A DNA stretch of 64,000 bases. It comes from Desulfobacteraceae bacterium (GTDB taxonomy: Bacteria > Desulfobacterota > Syntrophobacteria > Syntrophobacterales > Syntrophobacteraceae). The stretch spans positions 1 through 64,000 of the forward strand of contig JAJFVB010000001.1 in assembly GCA_021372055.1 (NCBI GenBank). The letters run 5' to 3'. Made by a program: the position numbers and the translations under genes. Shown here in pieces: positions 45,183-64,000 of this stretch; positions within the stretch are counted from its first letter, which is position 1, and every line of letters begins with the position of its first letter. The notes under the pieces are model-generated. The model was not told where the DNA came from. It searched no databases and worked only from the letters and a program-made list of their open reading frames with translations.

Positions 45183-46625
45183 ATGAAAACATTGCTTCTC
45201 AACCCGCCCTCTTTCGAAAAATTTGACGGGGGAGCGGGTGCCCGGTGGCCCGCCCGCCGGGAGATCGCTTCCTACTGGTACCCCGTCTGGCTGGCCTACC
45301 CCGCCGGACTTATCAAGGAAAGCAGGCTCCTCGACGCTCCGCCCCACGGGGTTTCATTCGAGGAAACGATCCGCATCGCGGCCGACTACGAATTTCTGGT
45401 TCTCTTCACGAGCAAGCCGGGGTTCAATACCGATGTCAAGTTGTCCGAAAGGATCAAGGCGGTAAATCCGTCGATCAAAATCTGCTTCGTCGGGCCTCCC
45501 GTATCGATTCAGCCGGAACAGGCCTTGAACGCTTCTTCCGCGATCGACTTCGTGGCCAGGAGGGAATTCGACTATACGGTAGCCGAGTTCGCCTGGGGCA
45601 AGGACCTCAAGGATATCGACGGAGTTAGCTACAGGGGCCCGAACGGTAAGATTGTCCACAACCCGGACAGGCCCCCCCTCGAGGACCTCGACTCGCTGCC
45701 CTGGATCGTCGACATTTACCGGCGGGACGTGGACCCGGCAAAATACAACATCCCATTTTTGAAACATCCCTATCTTTCGTTCTATACGTCCAGGGGATGC
45801 CCAGCCCGGTGCATCTACTGCCTCTGGCCCCAGACCTTCACGGGCCACCCGTGGCGGGTTCGAAGCAATGAAAGCGTTGTGGCCGAGGTCCGGCACGCGC
45901 TGGAGATATTTCCCGAGGTAAAGGAGATCTTCTTCGACGACGACACGTGGGCCTGGGGCAAAAGCCGCGTAATCGAGCTCTGCAAGCACCTCAAGCCGCT
46001 CAAGTTCACATGGTCCTGCAACAGTCGCGTGCACTCCGACTACGACATGCTGAAGGCGATGAAGGAAGCGGGCTGCCGGTTGCTGGTCGTCGGGTTCGAA
46101 TCGGGCGTCCAGGAAGTGCTGAACAACATGAAGAAGGGCATCACGGTCGAACAGTCCCTCACCTTCATGAAGAACTGCCGCGAACTGGGGATCACGGTCC
46201 ACGGAGATTTCATGATCGGCCTTCCGGGCGAGACCAAGGAGACCATCATGCGCACGATCGAGTTCGCCGAACGGCTCGATCCCGAGACGATCCAGGTCTC
46301 GCTTGCGCATCCCTATCCGGGCACGGAGTTCTACAAGTATCTCGAGGATAACGGGTATCTGACCGAAGACGACATGTCGGACGAACTTGGCCACCAACTC
46401 CCCAACTACGAGTATCCGTGGCTCAGCCGCCAGGAAATAGTCGACGCGGTGGAACACTTCTACGGCCGGTACTATTTTCGACCGAAGGTGATTTACCGGA
46501 TCGTGCGCCGGGCGCTTTTCGACAGGGACGACCGAAGGCGGCTCTACCAGGAAGCCAAGGATTACCTCTCGCTGCGGGCCCGCCGAAAGAAATTCACGGG
46601 CAACGTATTCGAGAAGAACTGCTGA
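45183..46625 (+). CDS. hpnJ: Hopanoid biosynthesis radical SAM protein HpnJ
   Basis: A 480-residue B12-binding-type radical SAM enzyme. The N-terminal domain (LLLNPPSFEKFDGG ... ARWPARREIASYWYPVWLAYPAGL) matches the HpnJ subgroup, and the radical SAM cluster motif CPARCIYC places Cys at 206, 210 and 213. HpnJ converts glucosaminyl bacteriohopanetetrol to the cyclitol ether by ring contraction, as known from Burkholderia and other bacteria. ATG 45183 follows the strong promoter above. hpnK and hpnI lie downstream in the same direction, consistent with this role. Confidence 0.9.
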   Translation: MKTLLLNPPSFEKFDGGAGARWPARREIASYWYPVWLAYPAGLIKESRLLDAPPHGVSFEETIRIAADYEFLVLFTSKPGFNTDVKLSERIKAVNPSIKICFVGPPVSIQPEQALNASSAIDFVARREFDYTVAEFAWGKDLKDIDGVSYRGPNGKIVHNPDRPPLEDLDSLPWIVDIYRRDVDPAKYNIPFLKHPYLSFYTSRGCPARCIYCLWPQTFTGHPWRVRSNESVVAEVRHALEIFPEVKEIFFDDDTWAWGKSRVIELCKHLKPLKFTWSCNSRVHSDYDMLKAMKEAGCRLLVVGFESGVQEVLNNMKKGITVEQSLTFMKNCRELGITVHGDFMIGLPGETKETIMRTIEFAERLDPETIQVSLAHPYPGTEFYKYLEDNGYLTEDDMSDELGHQLPNYEYPWLSRQEIVDAVEHFYGRYYFRPKVIYRIVRRALFDRDDRRRLYQEAKDYLSLRARRKKFTGNVFEKNC

Positions 46626-46750: not shown

Positions 46751-47611
46751 GTGGGAAAGAAATACCTCATAGTCAACGCAGACGACTTCGGAACATCCAG
46801 GAGCGTAAACGAAGCCGTCATCCTCGCGCACCGATGCGGCATGCTGACGAGCACAAGTCTCATGCCGGGCGGAGGGGCATTTGCCGAAGCGGTGCGCCTC
46901 GCGCGGGAAAACCCTCGTCTGGGAGTGGGGATACATGTCACCTGCGTTCTCGGCAAATCGGTCTTGCCGCACGCGGAGATCCCCCACATCGTCGATCCGG
47001 ACGGCAACTTCCCCTCGGACCCCGCACTGGCCGGACTGAGATATTTTTTTTGCAAAACCGCCCGAAAGGAACTATTCAAAGAGGTCTCGGCCCAGTTTGA
47101 AAAATTCAGCGCATCCGGCTTGAGTTTTTCCCATGCCGACAGCCACTGCCACCTGCACGTCCACCCGGTCGTGCTTGATGCAATGGTGCGGATCTGCGGG
47201 GAGTACGGCGTAAAGAGTATGCGCGTACCCGCAGACGACTTTTTCGCGGCGCTGCCTTTCATTCGCGGTCCCTTCGGCAAAGCCGCCCATGCGGTAATTT
47301 TCAAATTGCTTACCGGGAGCATGAAGAAGGTCCTGCGGGCAAGCGGGATCGCGTTTCCGCTGACGACGTACGGGCATTTCGTCACGGGGGCCGCCGGCAG
47401 GGAATATGTGCTGTCGATACTCAACCGTGTCCGGGACGGAGCGAGCGAGATAAATTTCCACCCGGATGTTTTGCAGGCGGGCGCGCATGTCGAGCGCATC
47501 GGACTGCAGCGGTTCCGGGAGTTGCGCATCCTGCTGGATCCGGAGATCCGCGCACGCATGAAAGAACTCGGGATCATCCCGGCAACCTATTTTGACTTGG
47601 ACAGGATTTGA
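46751..47611 (+). CDS. hpnK: Hopanoid biosynthesis deacetylase HpnK (ChbG/YdjC family)
   Basis: A 286-residue carbohydrate deacetylase. Metal ligands fit the family: NADDFGTS at the start, and the HADSHCHLHVHP motif in the centre. HpnK removes the acetyl group from N-acetylglucosaminyl bacteriohopanetetrol, producing the free amino sugar before HpnJ acts. The start is GTG 46751 with a weak ribosome site. The stop overlaps the next gene as ATGA (47608-47611), so the small membrane protein is translated with it. Confidence 0.88.
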   Translation: MGKKYLIVNADDFGTSRSVNEAVILAHRCGMLTSTSLMPGGGAFAEAVRLARENPRLGVGIHVTCVLGKSVLPHAEIPHIVDPDGNFPSDPALAGLRYFFCKTARKELFKEVSAQFEKFSASGLSFSHADSHCHLHVHPVVLDAMVRICGEYGVKSMRVPADDFFAALPFIRGPFGKAAHAVIFKLLTGSMKKVLRASGIAFPLTTYGHFVTGAAGREYVLSILNRVRDGASEINFHPDVLQAGAHVERIGLQRFRELRILLDPEIRARMKELGIIPATYFDLDRI

Positions 47612-48057
47612 TGAAAACAGCTTTTGTGATTACCATTGCCGTCCTGGCGCAGGCCGTCGGGAACACCCTTCTCAGCAAAGGGATGAAGATCATTGCCGCG
47701 ATGCCGGCATTTCAGGACGGTTTTTCGCTCATGATGCTCGTCTGCGCCCTCCAAAGCCTCTATATCTGGGGCGGCATCATCCTGATGATCGTCTTCTTCG
47801 CGTGTTTTCTTTCGGCATTGTCCTGGGCGGACCTGAGCTTCGTGCTCCCGGCCACGGCTTCGGGATACATTCTGAACGTCTTTTTCGCGAGCCAGTTTCT
47901 CGACGAACCGGTTTCGCCTGCAAGGTGGCTCGGTTCCGTGTTCATCATGGGCGGGATCGCGCTGGTTGCATGGTCGGGAAGGACGCAAACCCAGACCACC
48001 CCGTTGCCCGAGCCCATTAAGGTCAAAGAGGCCAAAGGGAGGGAACTGGGATGCTGA
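47608..48057 (+). CDS. Small EamA/DMT membrane protein, ArnE/F-like, first of pair
   Basis: A 149-residue protein with four hydrophobic helices and a short charged C-terminal tail. It contains LSWADLSFVLPATASGYILNV, nearly repeated in the next gene's product. Four-helix single-EamA proteins occurring as adjacent pairs are typical of ArnE/ArnF, which flip aminoarabinose-lipid across the inner membrane, and of small multidrug-resistance pairs. It overlaps hpnK at the start and the next gene by seven bases at the end. Its place between hpnK and hpnI suggests a role in moving a glycosylated hopanoid; that is inference. Confidence 0.8.
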   Translation: MMKTAFVITIAVLAQAVGNTLLSKGMKIIAAMPAFQDGFSLMMLVCALQSLYIWGGIILMIVFFACFLSALSWADLSFVLPATASGYILNVFFASQFLDEPVSPARWLGSVFIMGGIALVAWSGRTQTQTTPLPEPIKVKEAKGRELGC

Positions 48058-48419
48058 CGGCTTTCATGGTGCTTCTTATCGTGCTCTCCAATGCCGCGGG
48101 CGACGTCTGCATAACCCGGGGCATGAAGGAAATAGGCGACATCTCCGTAGTCGGCCCGAAGCAGTTGTTCGCTGTGATCAAAAGGATTCTCCTGAACAGG
48201 AATTTCCTGTCCGGCGTCTTCTGCCTTGCGGTCAGTTTTTTTTCTTTCCTGGCCATCCTTTCCTGGGCCGACCTGAGCTTCGTCGTACCGGCCACCGCGA
48301 TCGTGTACGTGGTTACGGTTCTCGGAGCGAAATTCTTCCTCAAGGAACAGATCAACCGGATGCGCTGGGCGGGCACCCTGCTTGTCTGCCTGGGAGTCGC
48401 CCTGGTCTGCATCCCCTGA
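48051..48419 (+). CDS. Small EamA/DMT membrane protein, ArnE/F-like, second of pair
   Basis: A 122-residue protein with four hydrophobic helices, sharing the segment LSWADLSFVVPATA with its neighbour, so the two are tandem paralogues that likely form a heterodimer. The length is close to ArnF and SMR proteins. A conserved charged residue (Asp in SWADLSF) sits in a membrane segment in both, unusual enough to suggest function. It is followed after 13 bases by hpnI. Confidence 0.8.
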   Translation: MLTAFMVLLIVLSNAAGDVCITRGMKEIGDISVVGPKQLFAVIKRILLNRNFLSGVFCLAVSFFSFLAILSWADLSFVVPATAIVYVVTVLGAKFFLKEQINRMRWAGTLLVCLGVALVCIP

Positions 48420-48432
48420 GCGCGCGCTCCAC

Positions 48433-49590
48433 ATGATGCTCGTCGAACCGATCAGACTCGTTTTCGGAATTCTTACCGCCGCTTCCATCTGCTACTTTTT
48501 CGTGAGCATTCTTGCCGCAAGGAGGTTTTTTTCCTCACCTCCCGCACCCGCTCTCAAGGACTGCCCGCCGGTATCCATCCTCATTCCGCTTTGCGGAGCC
48601 GATTTCAGGGCCTATGAGAACTATGCCGCGCTTTGCCGGCAGGATTACCCGGAGTTCCAGATCATTTTCGGAGTCCGCGATCCGATGGACAGCTCGGTTG
48701 CGCTGATAGCGCAGCTAAAAAAGGACTTCCCCGAGGTCCGGATCGATCTTGTCGTCAGCCCGGGGGAAATCGGCCCGAATCCGAAAGTGAACAACCTCAA
48801 CAACATGTACCCGTTTGCGGTGCATGACGTCCTGGCGCTGCTCGACAGCGACATCCTCGTGGGACGGGATTTCCTTAGGTCCGTCGTTTCGGAACTCGAT
48901 CATCAGAAGGGCGGCGTCGTGACCTGCATCTACACAGCGGGGGCCGCACCGGGGCTTGCGACCAAACTCGAGGCCGTCGGGATTTCCTCCGAGTTTGCGC
49001 CCGGAGTGCTCATCGCTCAGATGTCCGGGTCCATCTCCTTTGCCTTCGGGGCGGCAATCGTAATGACCCGTAAGGCCTTCGACTCAATCGGAGCCTTCCC
49101 GGCAATTGCCGCCTACCTCGCCGATGATTACATGATTGGCAATCTCGCGAACAAAGCCGGATTTCCCGTCACGCTCTCGAGGTACGTGGTGCGCACGGTG
49201 CTCTCAAAACTCAGTCTGAAGGGCTTTTGGCGGCACCAGGTACGCTGGGCGAGAGGTATAAGGGCATGCAACAAGTGGGGGCATACCGGCTCATTGATAA
49301 CAAACGGCACGGCGCTGTCGTTTTTGTACCTTGCGGTTTGCGGGTTTTCGCCCTTCGGATGGCTTGTCTTTCTCGGCACTCTCGCGCTGAGGCTGGCAAC
49401 GGCAAGAGCGGTGGGGGTAAACCGCCTGGGGGATTCACTCCTTGCGCGAAACCTCTGGCTCGTTCCGATAAGGGATTTTTTCAGCCTCTTTATCTGGTGC
49501 GCCGCCATCGGGGGCAAGCGGGTCGAGTGGCGGGGACAGGTCTTCCGGCTTCAGTCGGAAGGCAAAATGGTGCCTGAGAGCCGGCCCTGA
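48433..49590 (+). CDS. hpnI: Hopanoid biosynthesis glycosyltransferase HpnI
   Basis: A 385-residue membrane glycosyltransferase of the ceramide glucosyltransferase (GT21-like) type: N-terminal membrane helix, a GT-A domain with VSILIPLCGAD, LLDSDILVG (DxD) and the QVRWARG motif (QxxRW), then two or three C-terminal helices. HpnI adds N-acetylglucosamine to bacteriohopanetetrol. I start at ATG 48433, just after the preceding stop codon; an in-frame TTG at 48382 lies inside the upstream gene. With HpnK and HpnJ it completes the cyclitol-ether pathway. Confidence 0.88.
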   Translation: MMLVEPIRLVFGILTAASICYFFVSILAARRFFSSPPAPALKDCPPVSILIPLCGADFRAYENYAALCRQDYPEFQIIFGVRDPMDSSVALIAQLKKDFPEVRIDLVVSPGEIGPNPKVNNLNNMYPFAVHDVLALLDSDILVGRDFLRSVVSELDHQKGGVVTCIYTAGAAPGLATKLEAVGISSEFAPGVLIAQMSGSISFAFGAAIVMTRKAFDSIGAFPAIAAYLADDYMIGNLANKAGFPVTLSRYVVRTVLSKLSLKGFWRHQVRWARGIRACNKWGHTGSLITNGTALSFLYLAVCGFSPFGWLVFLGTLALRLATARAVGVNRLGDSLLARNLWLVPIRDFFSLFIWCAAIGGKRVEWRGQVFRLQSEGKMVPESRP

Positions 49591-49609: not shown

Positions 49610-50014
49610 ATGGAGTATTCCAGGATCGTTTTTCTGGCAATTGCGCTTCTGCTTCCTTTTTCCGTATTTCCGGCCTCAGCCGCGACGATGGGGCCCACCG
49701 TCCTTACCAGGGAAGATAACGGCAAGGAAATCACCCTCACGAAGGGAAGCGTGTTTGTCGTTGAACTCGGTTTTTCCGCTGGAACCGGTTTTTCATGGGA
49801 AATCGTGCACATAGACGATAAACGGCTGAACCTGCTTGATTCCGGGACAAAGCAGGCGGCGAAGGAATCGCTGCCCGGCGGGCCGATGCTGAAATCCTTC
49901 CACTTCAAGGCGGTCGGCACCGGTCGGACGGCCCTCAAGTTCTCTCTCTACAGGTCGTGGGAAGGTCCCGCAAAGGCGGCCGAGACATTTGCCGTGAAGA
50001 TAACGGTCAAATAG
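49610..50014 (+). CDS. Chagasin-like inhibitor (I42 family), secreted
   Basis: A 134-residue exported protein: signal peptide about 1-24 (LLLPFSVFPASA), then an immunoglobulin-like inhibitor domain. The loops match the chagasin/I42 pattern: GTGFSW (the NPTTGY-type loop), a central Gly-rich loop and the terminal RSWEG followed by FAVKITVK. Such proteins inhibit papain-type cysteine proteases; bacterial ones act on the organism's own or foreign proteases. It sits 19 bases after hpnI in the same direction, possibly the last gene of that operon. Confidence 0.82.
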   Translation: MEYSRIVFLAIALLLPFSVFPASAATMGPTVLTREDNGKEITLTKGSVFVVELGFSAGTGFSWEIVHIDDKRLNLLDSGTKQAAKESLPGGPMLKSFHFKAVGTGRTALKFSLYRSWEGPAKAAETFAVKITVK

Positions 50015-59960: not shown

Positions 59961-60989
59961 CTACTGTCTTCCGCCCTGCTCCAGCCTGCAAACCTTCCTC
60001 ACCGAGTAGATCTGCTTGCCCTGGGATTCGAAGTAGATCCGCATCATGATCTCGCTCAGCAGCCCGATCGCAAGGAACTGCACGCCCATCAGCATCACAA
60101 CGCATCCGAGCGCCGCAAGAGGTGCGTGGTCGCGGAAAATATCGACGCCGACGAGAAATTTGCGATACGACAGAAAGATCGCGATAAGCCCGGCAATGCC
60201 CGAAAAACCGACGAAAAGCTTTCCGAAAAAGTGCAGAGGCCGCGTCATGTAGCGTCTCATGAAACCGACCGTCAGCAGATCGAAGGCTACTCGAAAGGTC
60301 CTCCCGAGTCCGTAGTGCGATTTCCCCTGGTTGCGTCCCATGTCCTTGATGGGGATTTCGACGATGCGCGCCCCGTTCTGCGCCATGATCGCCGGGACGA
60401 AACGGTGAAGGTCGCCGTAGAGGTGCAGGTCGGCCAGGATCTCTTTGCGGTATGCCTTGAAGGTCGTACCGAAATCGTGCACGCTTACCCCGGAAACCTT
60501 GGCTATGAGCCAGTTGGCGATGCGCGAGGGAACTGTTCTCGTGAGGAAGGCATCCGTCCGGGCGGTCCTCCAGCCGGAGACCATGTCATAGCCCTCTTCG
60601 ATCTTGTCCACAAATTTGGGGATCTCTTCCGGGGCATGCTGCAGGTCGCCGTCGAGCGAGACTATCAACTCTCCGCGGGCATGGTGGAAGCCCGCCATGA
60701 GCGCAGGAGTCTGACCGTAGTTTCTCCGCAGGTGGACAACGGTGACCCGCCGGTCCGTCTTGTAGAGCGCGTCCAGGAGCCGGGGCGTCTCATCGGTGCT
60801 CCCGTCGTTTACCAGGACAAGTTCCCACGACTGCCCGAACTCCTCCATGACGGTGCGGACCCGTTCGTACAGTTCCTTGAGCGTCGTCGCTTCGTTATGA
60901 AGCGGTATAACCACAGAAATCCTCGGATCGGTTCCTCCGGTCGTTTCCGCGATGCAGTCAAATCCGGCCATCAAAGCCTTATCACTCAC
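59961..60989 (-). CDS. ArnC/GtrB-like polyprenyl-phosphate glycosyltransferase
   Basis: A 342-residue GT2 enzyme with two C-terminal membrane helices, the layout of dolichol/undecaprenyl-phosphate sugar transferases (DPM1, GtrB, ArnC). Motifs: ISVVIPLHNEATTL, LVNDGSTDETP, the DxD in SLDGDLQHAPEEI, and SHYGLGRTFRVAFDLL. It would load a sugar onto a lipid carrier at the cytoplasmic face. GTG 60989 shares one base with the stop of the deacetylase gene upstream, so the two are coupled; ArnC and ArnD are paired in the same way in the aminoarabinose pathway. Confidence 0.88.
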   Translation of the reverse strand: MSDKALMAGFDCIAETTGGTDPRISVVIPLHNEATTLKELYERVRTVMEEFGQSWELVLVNDGSTDETPRLLDALYKTDRRVTVVHLRRNYGQTPALMAGFHHARGELIVSLDGDLQHAPEEIPKFVDKIEEGYDMVSGWRTARTDAFLTRTVPSRIANWLIAKVSGVSVHDFGTTFKAYRKEILADLHLYGDLHRFVPAIMAQNGARIVEIPIKDMGRNQGKSHYGLGRTFRVAFDLLTVGFMRRYMTRPLHFFGKLFVGFSGIAGLIAIFLSYRKFLVGVDIFRDHAPLAALGCVVMLMGVQFLAIGLLSEIMMRIYFESQGKQIYSVRKVCRLEQGGRQ

Positions 60990-61867
60990 TAGTCTACCTC
61001 TCTGAAATTTCGAAAAATAACATTCCTATTCGCAAAAATCTCCCTGACCCTCCGGGAGACGAGAAGACCTTTTTCAATCTCTCGAGACTGCAGGAGGCGC
61101 GTCCCGCAGTTTTCCAGATCCGAATCGAGACGACCCGGATGCGTCATGAGTTCGGTCACCCCCGGTCTCAGCATTGCGCCGATACCACTTATCACATTCT
61201 CATTCAAAAACCCTGTCGTCGAGATTCCGTAAAAGCGGTCCGGAGTCCTGAGCCCGGCATTCCTGATCCTGGAATGGAATGTCCGCCGGGCGCAACGGCT
61301 CACGAGTCCCCGCGCATACTGCTTGAGGAAGGTCGACCTGTTGCCTTTTTCCACATCCTTCAGCAGCCACAGGGAATCGGCGGCTTCGAAGGGGCTCCGT
61401 ATCCACTTTACCGAAAACCGCCGGGCGAGTTCGATCATAACGTCCAGCACGGCGGGAACAAGGTGCACGTGTTTGTGGCAATCGAAATGCGTCGGACGGA
61501 GCCCGGAATCAAATACCCGTTCGGCCTGGGCGAATAACTCCTGCCGAATTTCATCGCGGAATGCCCTGCCCGCAAGACTCATTTTCAGAAGCCGCCCGGG
61601 CCCGGAGGGAAGCAGGCCGTCCTCTCCCAGGAGTCCCGGGAGTTTCTCCGGCGCGCTCACGGGCTTCAGACCCGTAAGAACAAAGTGAATCCCGACGCCG
61701 AGATCGGGCAGGAGTCCGGCCGTCGCCACCGCATCGTCAAATGCCGATCCGTTGGCCATGATGGTCGCGCTCCGCAGCACTCCGGCCTGCGAGCATTCGG
61801 CGATGGCGCCGTTCACGCCGCGGGTCAACCCGAAATCATCAGCATTAACGACAAGTTTGATATTCAT
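60989..61867 (-). CDS. ChbG/YdjC-family carbohydrate deacetylase
   Basis: A 292-residue protein paralogous to the HpnK of this window: NADDFGLTRG at the start and the metal-binding HFDCHKHVHLVP in the middle, with THPGRLD late. The family removes acetyl groups from amino sugars. Coupling to the ArnC-like transferase suggests that it trims a sugar on a lipid carrier, comparable to ArnD deformylation or to hopanoid processing. ATG 61867 lies in a 287-base divergent gap facing a TolC-family gene. Confidence 0.85.
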   Translation of the reverse strand: MNIKLVVNADDFGLTRGVNGAIAECSQAGVLRSATIMANGSAFDDAVATAGLLPDLGVGIHFVLTGLKPVSAPEKLPGLLGEDGLLPSGPGRLLKMSLAGRAFRDEIRQELFAQAERVFDSGLRPTHFDCHKHVHLVPAVLDVMIELARRFSVKWIRSPFEAADSLWLLKDVEKGNRSTFLKQYARGLVSRCARRTFHSRIRNAGLRTPDRFYGISTTGFLNENVISGIGAMLRPGVTELMTHPGRLDSDLENCGTRLLQSREIEKGLLVSRRVREIFANRNVIFRNFREVD

Positions 61868-62154
61868 CGTGGAGAATTTTTCCGATCGTGAACAGGATCA
61901 ACCGGCACATTCCGGAAGGTCGGTCGGTATCAGAGATGGGCGCCAATGTCAAGAAGCGAGGAAACTTTCCCCCTACGGATTGAATGCCCGAAACTTGTGA
62001 TTATATGACCCAAAGGAACTCCGAATTCAAGTTCGAAGCGGTCTGGACCGATAAACTAAACGCCTGTTTAACTTTTACCACTTCCAATCTGGGCGTTAGT
62101 GCTATATAAAACCTGCCCAAGACACAACCTTAACACTTTCAGGAAAGATGCACG

Positions 62155-63561
62155 ATGGTTATGACGCTCCGCTTTCGGGACTATCTCCTCATGTTCACTA
62201 TCCTGAGTGTATTCCTTGGCTTGGCGTGCTCGCCCGCGGCTGCCGAACGGAAGGTATACACCCTGGAGCAGCTTATCCAGATGGCCCTGGAAACCAGCCC
62301 GGAGCTGAAAATGGCAGAACAGGACGTCATTTCGGCCAAAAGCGATTATAATCAAGCCAAAGCGGGGCAGCTTCCGCAGCTTGAGATCACCGCCATCGCG
62401 GGGCCGGTCAATGACGCCCGGGTGCCCACCGTGAACACCAACGGCCACCTCGTCTCCCATGACGACTCGGAGGTCGGCTTGTTCGGACGGTTCGATTTCG
62501 CTTTCGTGCAGCCGCTCTATACTTTTGGAAAAATCGCCAACCGCAAGGACGCCGCCGCGCTGGGCGTTGAGGCTCAAAGGGCTGGGAAAGAACAAAAACG
62601 CAATGAGATCGTCCTGACGGTGAAGGAACTCTATTTCGGCTACCTCGTGGCGGCTCAGGGCAAGAGCGCGGCAAGGGAAGCCGATGATTTTATTTCCGAT
62701 GCCGGAAAGCGCATCAAGAGGTTGATCGAACTGAAGGCCCAAAACGCCGACCCGAGCGATTTGTACCGGCTCGATGCCTTTTCCGCCGAAGTAAAGAGCT
62801 TTGCGGCGAAAGCCGACTCCGGAGCGCGCCTTGCCTCGGCCGCGCTCAAGAAGGCGGCGGGCCTTCCCGAAAACGCCGAGTTGAATCTCGATGCGCGTGA
62901 ATTGCCCAAGACCACCGTGGAACTCGCGTCCGAAGCGGAATACGTCCAACTCGCGCTTGCGCAACGGCCCGAACTCACGCAGGTCAAGAAAGGCGTCGCG
63001 GCCAAGAAAAAACTTGCCGATGCCGCCAAGTCGGACTTCTACCCTTCGCTTTTCGCAGCCGCCATCGGCTCCGTTGCCGGTGCGCCCGACCGTGAGTCGT
63101 TTGACAACTCCTACTTCACCGACGACTTCAACCATTCCTACGCCGGGATTGTAGCGGGGGCGCAATGGCATTTCGATTTCGGAATCACCAAGGGGAAACT
63201 GGACAAGGCAAGGGCCGAACACAAAAAGATGCAACACACTCAGGAATACGCCGAGAAGAATATTCCGCTCGAAGTCCTGAAATACTACCAGGAGGCCGTG
63301 GAAGCCAGGCAGACCTATACAGCCTACCAGCAGGCGGTGACCGGCTCCCGCAGGTGGGTTGTTTCAGCCTTTTCGAATTTCGATATCGGGGTGGGAACGG
63401 CGCGGGACATTTTCGATGCGATCGATCGCTATGGAAAAAATCAGGGCGAGTATCTCCGCTCGCTTTATAGTTACCATGTTGCACTGGCGCGGCTCAACTA
63501 CGCCGTCGGCAAAGGCCATGAAGCCCAATTAGCCGCAGCCGTTGAAACCGCTGGGGAATAG
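62155..63561 (+). CDS. TolC-family outer-membrane protein
   Basis: A 468-residue outer-membrane efflux protein with a signal peptide (about residues 1-31, ending PAAA) and two OEP repeats. Sequence differs strongly from the other TolC-family protein in the window, so it is not a recent duplicate. It precedes the HpnN-like RND gene by 16 bases and may form its outer-membrane partner. ATG 62155 is eight bases from AGGAAA; a nearby ATG at 62148 is out of frame. Confidence 0.9.
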   Translation: MVMTLRFRDYLLMFTILSVFLGLACSPAAAERKVYTLEQLIQMALETSPELKMAEQDVISAKSDYNQAKAGQLPQLEITAIAGPVNDARVPTVNTNGHLVSHDDSEVGLFGRFDFAFVQPLYTFGKIANRKDAAALGVEAQRAGKEQKRNEIVLTVKELYFGYLVAAQGKSAAREADDFISDAGKRIKRLIELKAQNADPSDLYRLDAFSAEVKSFAAKADSGARLASAALKKAAGLPENAELNLDARELPKTTVELASEAEYVQLALAQRPELTQVKKGVAAKKKLADAAKSDFYPSLFAAAIGSVAGAPDRESFDNSYFTDDFNHSYAGIVAGAQWHFDFGITKGKLDKARAEHKKMQHTQEYAEKNIPLEVLKYYQEAVEARQTYTAYQQAVTGSRRWVVSAFSNFDIGVGTARDIFDAIDRYGKNQGEYLRSLYSYHVALARLNYAVGKGHEAQLAAAVETAGE

Positions 63562-63577
63562 GACAGATTGCTACGGT

Positions 63578-64000
63578 ATGAGTATTCTCTCCGGGTTGAT
63601 GCAAAAATTGATGGCCTGGGTTTTACCTAGGCCTCGTTTCATTCTGGGGGCAACTTTCGCCTCCGTCGTTGCATGCATCTTTGCCACGATCACGTTGCTG
63701 GACGTGCAAACGAACCAGCTCGAACTGATTTCTCAGCGACATCCGCTGATAGCCCTTTCCGACAAGCTGGACGAGTTCAACTTTCACGGGAAAGCCACTT
63801 TTGCGGTCGTCGTTCGATCCAACAACAATCCCAATCGGGCAATAGAGTTCGTAAATGCGCTCGTTGAAAAGATCCGCCAGGATCCTCAGCACTTCCAGGA
63901 TGTATTTTACCGAATAGACCCCGAACAATTCAAGAAATGGGTGCTCTATTACCTGGATGAGGACGAACTCGTTCAGATCAGGGAGCGCATCGAGCAGAAT
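63578..64000 (+). CDS. hpnN: RND/MMPL transporter, HpnN-like (partial)
   Basis: Starts at ATG 63578 and is open to the window edge (141 residues visible). It begins with a basic segment and a membrane helix (FILGATFASVVACIFATITLL), followed by the start of a periplasmic loop with EFNFHGKATFAVVV and FQDVFYRIDPEQFKKW, which match the HpnN subgroup of RND transporters. HpnN moves hopanoids to the outer membrane. The 3' part lies outside the window, so full assignment needs the continuation. Confidence 0.8.
   Translation, partial: MSILSGLMQKLMAWVLPRPRFILGATFASVVACIFATITLLDVQTNQLELISQRHPLIALSDKLDEFNFHGKATFAVVVRSNNNPNRAIEFVNALVEKIRQDPQHFQDVFYRIDPEQFKKWVLYYLDEDELVQIRERIEQN

Follow-up and report, generated by a model that had tools for sequence, protein, structure and literature searches.

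A four-helix DMT/SMR-type protein family accompanying amino-sugar hopanoid genes as a candidate hopanoid flippase

Hopanoids are bacterial sterol-like lipids, and the locus described here raises the question of how those carrying an amino sugar might cross the inner membrane. HpnI adds N-acetylglucosamine to bacteriohopanetetrol (BHT), HpnK deacetylates the product, and formation of the cyclitol ether is due to HpnJ (PMC12583986, citing Schmerk 2015). Whereas the order HpnI, HpnK, HpnJ comes from known biochemistry, we infer action on the cytoplasmic side for all three: given the radical SAM nature of HpnJ and the GT21-type glycosyltransferase nature of HpnI, the amino-sugar hopanoid would be finished on that side and would then have to cross. 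HpnN covers only later hopanoid transport, and a 2025 study of Alphaproteobacteria that sought further genes near hpn clusters saw none (PMC12583986). In one report on Leptospirillum, an EamA-like transporter is named among the genes of a hopanoid cluster, with no role given (PMC12654047), and the papers searched give no function for the subfamily described below.

The window, i.e., the whole stretch analyzed, comprises positions 1-64,000 (64,000 nucleotides) of the forward strand of contig JAJFVB010000001.1 from a Desulfobacteraceae bacterium (GTDB Syntrophobacteraceae; GCA_021372055.1). On its plus strand, hpnJ (45183-46625), encoding the radical SAM/B12-binding enzyme involved in forming BHT cyclitol ether, is followed by hpnK (46751-47611), encoding a YdjC-type deacetylase, by two genes termed here A (47611-48057) and B (48051-48419), and by hpnI (48433-49590), encoding the GT21-type glycosyltransferase for the N-acetylglucosamine of BHT. 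All three hpn genes score above their curated cut-offs (hpnJ, TIGR03471, 745.5 bits against 577.6; hpnK, TIGR03473, 263 against 232.6; hpnI, TIGR03472, 366 against 310). The overlap is 1 nt between hpnK and A (TGATG) and 7 nt between A and B, and a gap of 13 nt separates B from hpnI. A sequence-only reading of this DNA had described two overlapping four-helix EamA genes, coupled to hpnK, in the hpnK-hpnI interval; this layout holds, except that it began A at 47608, an upstream in-frame TTG, and the start is most likely the ATG at 47611, because A orthologs begin with M-K/R-T. Both A and B, members of the DMT/EamA group, contain four transmembrane (TM) stretches, and A, which scores 81 bits with the B profile, is clearly homologous to B. 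The EamA model (PF00892, cut-off 28.2 bits) recognizes B (37.2) and the fused form described below (46.6), with A alone just below it at 25.2. The motif LSWADLSFV-PATA, earlier noticed as common to the two proteins, is present in both, and its residues W72, S76 and P80 are invariant across all A and B orthologs.

Other genes of the window deserve mention. Positions 49610-50014, after hpnI, encode a small secreted protein whose GTGFSWE motif resembles chagasin-type peptidase inhibitors. HpnN-like, TolC-like and HpnM-like genes lie 14-18 kb downstream of the hpn/A/B genes, in a row with a second HpnK-like gene (175 bits, below the cut-off); the row as a whole spans 60989-64000 and continues on the contig to 66985. 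The HpnN-like RND transporter, the proposed next carrier towards the outer membrane, starts in the window (63542-64000, plus strand, to 66361 on the contig) and scores 516 bits with TIGR03480, below the cut-off of 752. This row is possibly a hopanoid export module.

The order hpnJ-K-A-B-I is kept in the Syntrophobacteraceae. At the 21 loci of this bacterial family that were examined, B orthologs show 57-80% identity to the B of the window, A and hpnI adjoin B in all, and hpnK lies upstream of A save where the contig starts inside A; being thus conserved as protein, the pair is not a chance overlap of reading frames. Two members of the bacterial family, G012 and G018 (identifiers of genomes, G, and loci, L, are ours), have hpnJ-K-I with nothing between hpnK and hpnI; an hpn-type gene (140 bits) lies elsewhere in the genome of G012, unlinked to hpn genes, and none was found in G018. 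Directly upstream of hpnJ, both pair-less loci encode a conserved, probably secreted protein of ~220-260 residues (L031:3238-3891; L032:5341-6135). Additionally, a contig filed under Planctomycetota but probably misbinned (L053) shows the order J-K-A-B-I, with a B 71% identical to that of the window, and in the otherwise pair-less G088 a short A-like fragment, a possible remnant, is located between HpnI and HpnJ (L116:6848-7078; 63% identity, E 1e-5).

The family also occurs in other arrangements. The pair is found as K-A-B-I in the Syntrophobacteraceae and in one Blastocatellia MAG (Acidobacteria), as I-K-epimerase-J-A-B in Nitrospirota, and as I-A-B and J-A-B in two cyanobacteria; in cyanobacterium G599, a second, divergent DMT gene pair follows J-A-B directly on the opposite strand (L152:7792-8678). 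Most Nitrospirota carriers and the other Desulfobacterota families have one gene (E), in the order J-K-E in the latter and J-K-E, I-E or K-E in the former. Cyanobacteria mostly carry an A-B fusion, seen in 15 proteins of ~270-310 residues with the orders K-[AB]-I, K-[AB] or [AB]-I, and one K-[AB]-I locus has exactly the order of the window. These single and fused forms contradict the notion that a pair is required. In a tree of 88 rows and 128 columns, whose inner forks are uncertain because so few columns are available, the N-half of the fusions groups with A and the C-half with B. A split with 97% SH-aLRT support separates all hpn-type rows from the ArnE-like proteins.

Presence of these genes follows that of the hpn genes across phyla. 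Among 395 sampled Desulfobacterota genomes, 18 carry a strong B relative (98 bits or more), and HpnJ is found in 18 of these 18 versus 46 of the 395 overall (Fisher 5e-19, kinship ignored). For 17 of the carriers the gene is on the HpnJ contig, a few kb away, and in the remaining one it is adjoined by HpnK and HpnI. Weak profile matches (55-97 bits) in other HpnJ-positive Desulfobacterota were rejected as ArnE-like genes with another motif, the copy in G012 being the sole true exception. The 244 cyanobacterial genomes yielded 17 strong matches, about half of them unlinked to hpn genes, with HpnJ in 13 of the 17 versus 26 of the 244 (Fisher 2e-11, kinship ignored). HpnI was present in all 24 carriers tested (just below the cut-off in two), including four cyanobacteria that lack HpnJ. 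At 15 of the 18 Nitrospirota loci examined the gene lies beside HpnI, HpnK or HpnJ, and at one more near HpnA; the other two loci, in genomes that we take to be Leptospirillum-like, hold a more distant, lower-scoring hpn-type-like EamA gene beside nuo genes, with no hpn gene in view (L197:6218-6820; L202:5705-6151). The viral contigs searched contained no relatives, and plasmids contained four weak ones, three of which were inspected and found not to be beside hpn genes. An apparent fused copy on a plasmid of Gloeothece verrucosa PCC 7822 (L242:5512-6354) is annotated only as a DMT family transporter (WP_013334686.1).

The E-values and Fisher statistics are not corrected for shared ancestry, but the repeated rearrangements and fusions speak against hitch-hiking as the source of this co-occurrence. 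The family is almost certainly part of the amino-sugar hopanoid pathway. The dedicated link to the HpnI/K/J branch that had been proposed from the window extends across phyla, and the pattern named as telling against it, frequent occurrence of the pair away from hpn genes, did not emerge, as every carrier tested has HpnI. A requirement for HpnJ does not hold, given the four carriers with HpnI and no HpnJ. Many HpnJ genomes are without the gene, namely 27 of the 46 HpnJ-positive Desulfobacterota and 13 of the 26 HpnJ-positive cyanobacteria. The pathway can therefore run without an A/B-type gene, and the family is not universal; in such genomes, the task may fall to another protein, HpnL for example, or flipping may not be a strict need.

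Paired SMRs were reported to show opposite Arg/Lys biases, and single SMRs no bias (PMC9574504). The adjacent genes A and B follow this rule, with a mean charge bias of +1.9 for A (a few A rows are at 0 or -1), -7.9 for B and 0.1 for the hpn-type singles. Correspondingly, A is predicted to be N-in/C-in and B N-out/C-out. For the fusions, prediction places the basic linker in the cytoplasm, while the C-half keeps the inside-positive loops of B. An additional membrane crossing would then be needed ahead of the C-half, and a 13-residue hydrophobic stretch is indeed found there, in a part of the model with low confidence. The opposite charge bias and the A-B fusions both speak for the heterodimer suggested earlier, and it is very likely that A and B form one in antiparallel orientation. 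An AlphaFold2 model of the fused form shows 4+4 helices (pLDDT 78, pTM 0.73). Each half superposes on Gdx-Clo/EmrE, the C-half with Z 14.1 on Gdx-Clo (1.7 Å over 100 residues) and the N-half with Z 12.1, the whole model superposes on YddG (5i20) with Z 9.9 (3.1 Å over 171 residues), and a model of B from the window, taken by itself, matches EmrE with Z 11.2, all values to be read knowing that Z scores of helical bundles can be unspecific up to ~13. With this reservation, the models (Z 11-14 on EmrE/Gdx) point to the EmrE/Gdx (SMR) fold, the four predicted TM helices being superposable.

As relatives accompany the same hpn genes in four phyla, whether single, paired or fused, the family is the best candidate for a hopanoid flippase. 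A and B would form a 4+4-TM heterodimer of SMR/DMT fold that transfers BHT-glucosamine, made by HpnI and HpnK, and BHT cyclitol ether, made by HpnJ, from the cytoplasmic to the periplasmic leaflet of the inner membrane, after which HpnN could carry the flipped lipid to the outer membrane. As in ArnE/ArnF, the headgroup would occupy the dimer cavity, with a lateral portal allowing the hydrophobic tail to stay in the bilayer; proton coupling through a Glu, as in EmrE, is probably absent. Judged by what was computed here, i.e., gene linkage, co-occurrence, the three forms, charge signatures, predicted fold and homology to ArnE, A/B probably represent a flippase of this kind, with flipping, direction and substrate all inferred. 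The wider proposal is that these proteins are flippases dedicated to amino-sugar hopanoids, providing the missing inner-membrane step between HpnI/K/J and HpnN in at least four phyla and in three architectures (dual-topology single, fixed heterodimer and fused), and thereby a further functional subtype of SMR/DMT proteins; we consider this slightly favored. Several observations speak against a flippase: position 79, where ArnE-like proteins keep the SMR Tyr switch, is Leu/Val, hpnJ-K-I exists in two close relatives with nothing between hpnK and hpnI, and the HpnJ genomes without the gene show that the pathway can do without it.

Alternatively, A/B could be an assembly factor without transport, serving HpnK/HpnI in the membrane as an anchor or by presenting the substrate. 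This would suit the tight translational coupling to hpnK with hpnI close by, as well as the soluble appearance of HpnK, whose lipid substrate is membrane-bound. However, an assembly factor would not be expected to show a predicted transporter fold, conserved polar TM1 residues and an opposite-topology dimer, nor a single-gene form with the dual-topology charge balance of transporters, and in cyanobacteria and G012 the gene is retained even where hpn genes are not nearby, all of which makes such a role unlikely. It is also improbable that A/B flip another lipid of the pathway, either bacteriohopanetetrol prior to glycosylation or an undecaprenyl-phosphate sugar as in arn. Homology to ArnE-like proteins is in agreement with this, and one of these proteins, from the same class of bacteria, is encoded in an arn-type operon, read by eye, that has a single ArnE-like gene and no ArnE/ArnF pair (G041, L034:3037-9546). 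Nevertheless, presence of the family tracks HpnI, hpn-type and ArnE-type proteins form separate clades with different motifs (Trp72 and Leu/Val79 versus Arg72 and Tyr79), and a non-systematic look at the mapped hpn loci noticed no periplasmic GT-C transferase of the kind that would use an Und-P-sugar once flipped.

Unlike a lipid flippase, Gdx/Qac SMRs export small soluble solutes, and A/B might do the same for detoxification (e.g., of free glucosamine, guanidinium or a drug), a function compatible with the Gdx/EmrE fold and with the amidinotransferase genes that adjoin some members. Such genes were observed beside the hpn-type EamA gene in G012, near one in G563 and beside HpnI in Rhizonema (L035:6587-7723; L162:6436-7536; L068:497-2790), the one at L035 being closest to SxtG/AGAT structures. 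They may encode guanidinylating enzymes, given that Methylobacterium is known to have a BHT cyclitol ether with a guanidine substituent (PMC5358736). Solute export by A/B is quite improbable, as HpnI/K/J release acetate and no obvious toxic solute, and the residues of proton-coupled Gdx/Qac proteins are missing. The central Glu in TM1 of the drug/Gdx subtype (E14 in EmrE and E13 in Gdx-Clo) is absent from A and B: position 14, equated with Gdx-Clo Glu13 through the structural-alignment register on the assumption of a gap-free TM1, is Gln in 20 of 20 A and Asn in 21 of 21 B, which also have an invariant Asp18; in the fused C-halves of cyanobacteria and in B of Nitrospirota it is Asp. The TM3 Tyr switch is equally absent, position 79 being Leu/Val/Ile in A and B and Tyr in 16 of 16 ArnE-like controls. 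Lipid SMRs often have Asn in place of the central Glu (PMC9574504). Finally, a chance neighbor or ordinary EamA transporter without any hopanoid tie, conceivable because EamA genes are numerous (the source genome has 13 domain matches), is already contradicted and has a negligible probability, since four phyla keep the linkage despite several different gene orders, and co-occurrence holds even where the genes are unlinked. For a genome of this kind, the chance of any EamA gene lying 5 kb or less from hpnJ is ~2-3%.

The proposed flippase role has wider implications. A conserved candidate makes the inner-membrane crossing of hopanoids directly testable, the family provides a new marker gene for genome surveys of hopanoid biomarkers, and it offers a natural series of single, paired and fused transporters within one pathway.

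Among the closest known systems is ArnE/ArnF, the undecaprenyl-phosphate-aminoarabinose flippase and a lipid subtype of SMR. Likenesses include 4-TM DMT/SMR subunits, paired genes, Asn at the central position of B, and the combination of a glycosyltransferase, an N-deacylase and a 4-TM dimer in both arn and hpn systems; in addition, the A profile picks up E. coli ArnE at 27 bits. The homology to ArnE claimed earlier is therefore real, but A/B are not ArnE/ArnF proper: A (17.6 bits) and B (15.2) score far below the cut-off of the ArnE model NF011625 (92 bits), belong to a separate clade with another motif, and sit in, or co-occur with, hpn loci rather than an arn operon. The family is a sister of the ArnE-like proteins, not a member. 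The structural matches included no solved ArnE/ArnF structure. EmrE and Gdx share the predicted fold and the logic of an antiparallel dimer with A/B, which differ in having Gln/Asn/Asp for the central Glu, no Tyr switch and a biosynthetic operon setting. YddG and SLC35-type 10-TM DMT proteins align with both halves of the fused form, which is built as 4+4 TM with a short hydrophobic linker and not as 5+5. HpnL and HpnN, like A/B, are membrane proteins of the hopanoid pathway, but of other protein families: HpnN moves hopanoids to the outer membrane, A and B gave no match to HpnL (TIGR03476) in an NCBIfam scan, and HpnL is represented in the genomes of the window's bacterial family by sub-cut-off relatives only, with none above the cut-off, as would be expected if the pair replaced canonical HpnL there, an idea that was considered. 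The hpn-type proteins are a subfamily of a known kind of transporter.
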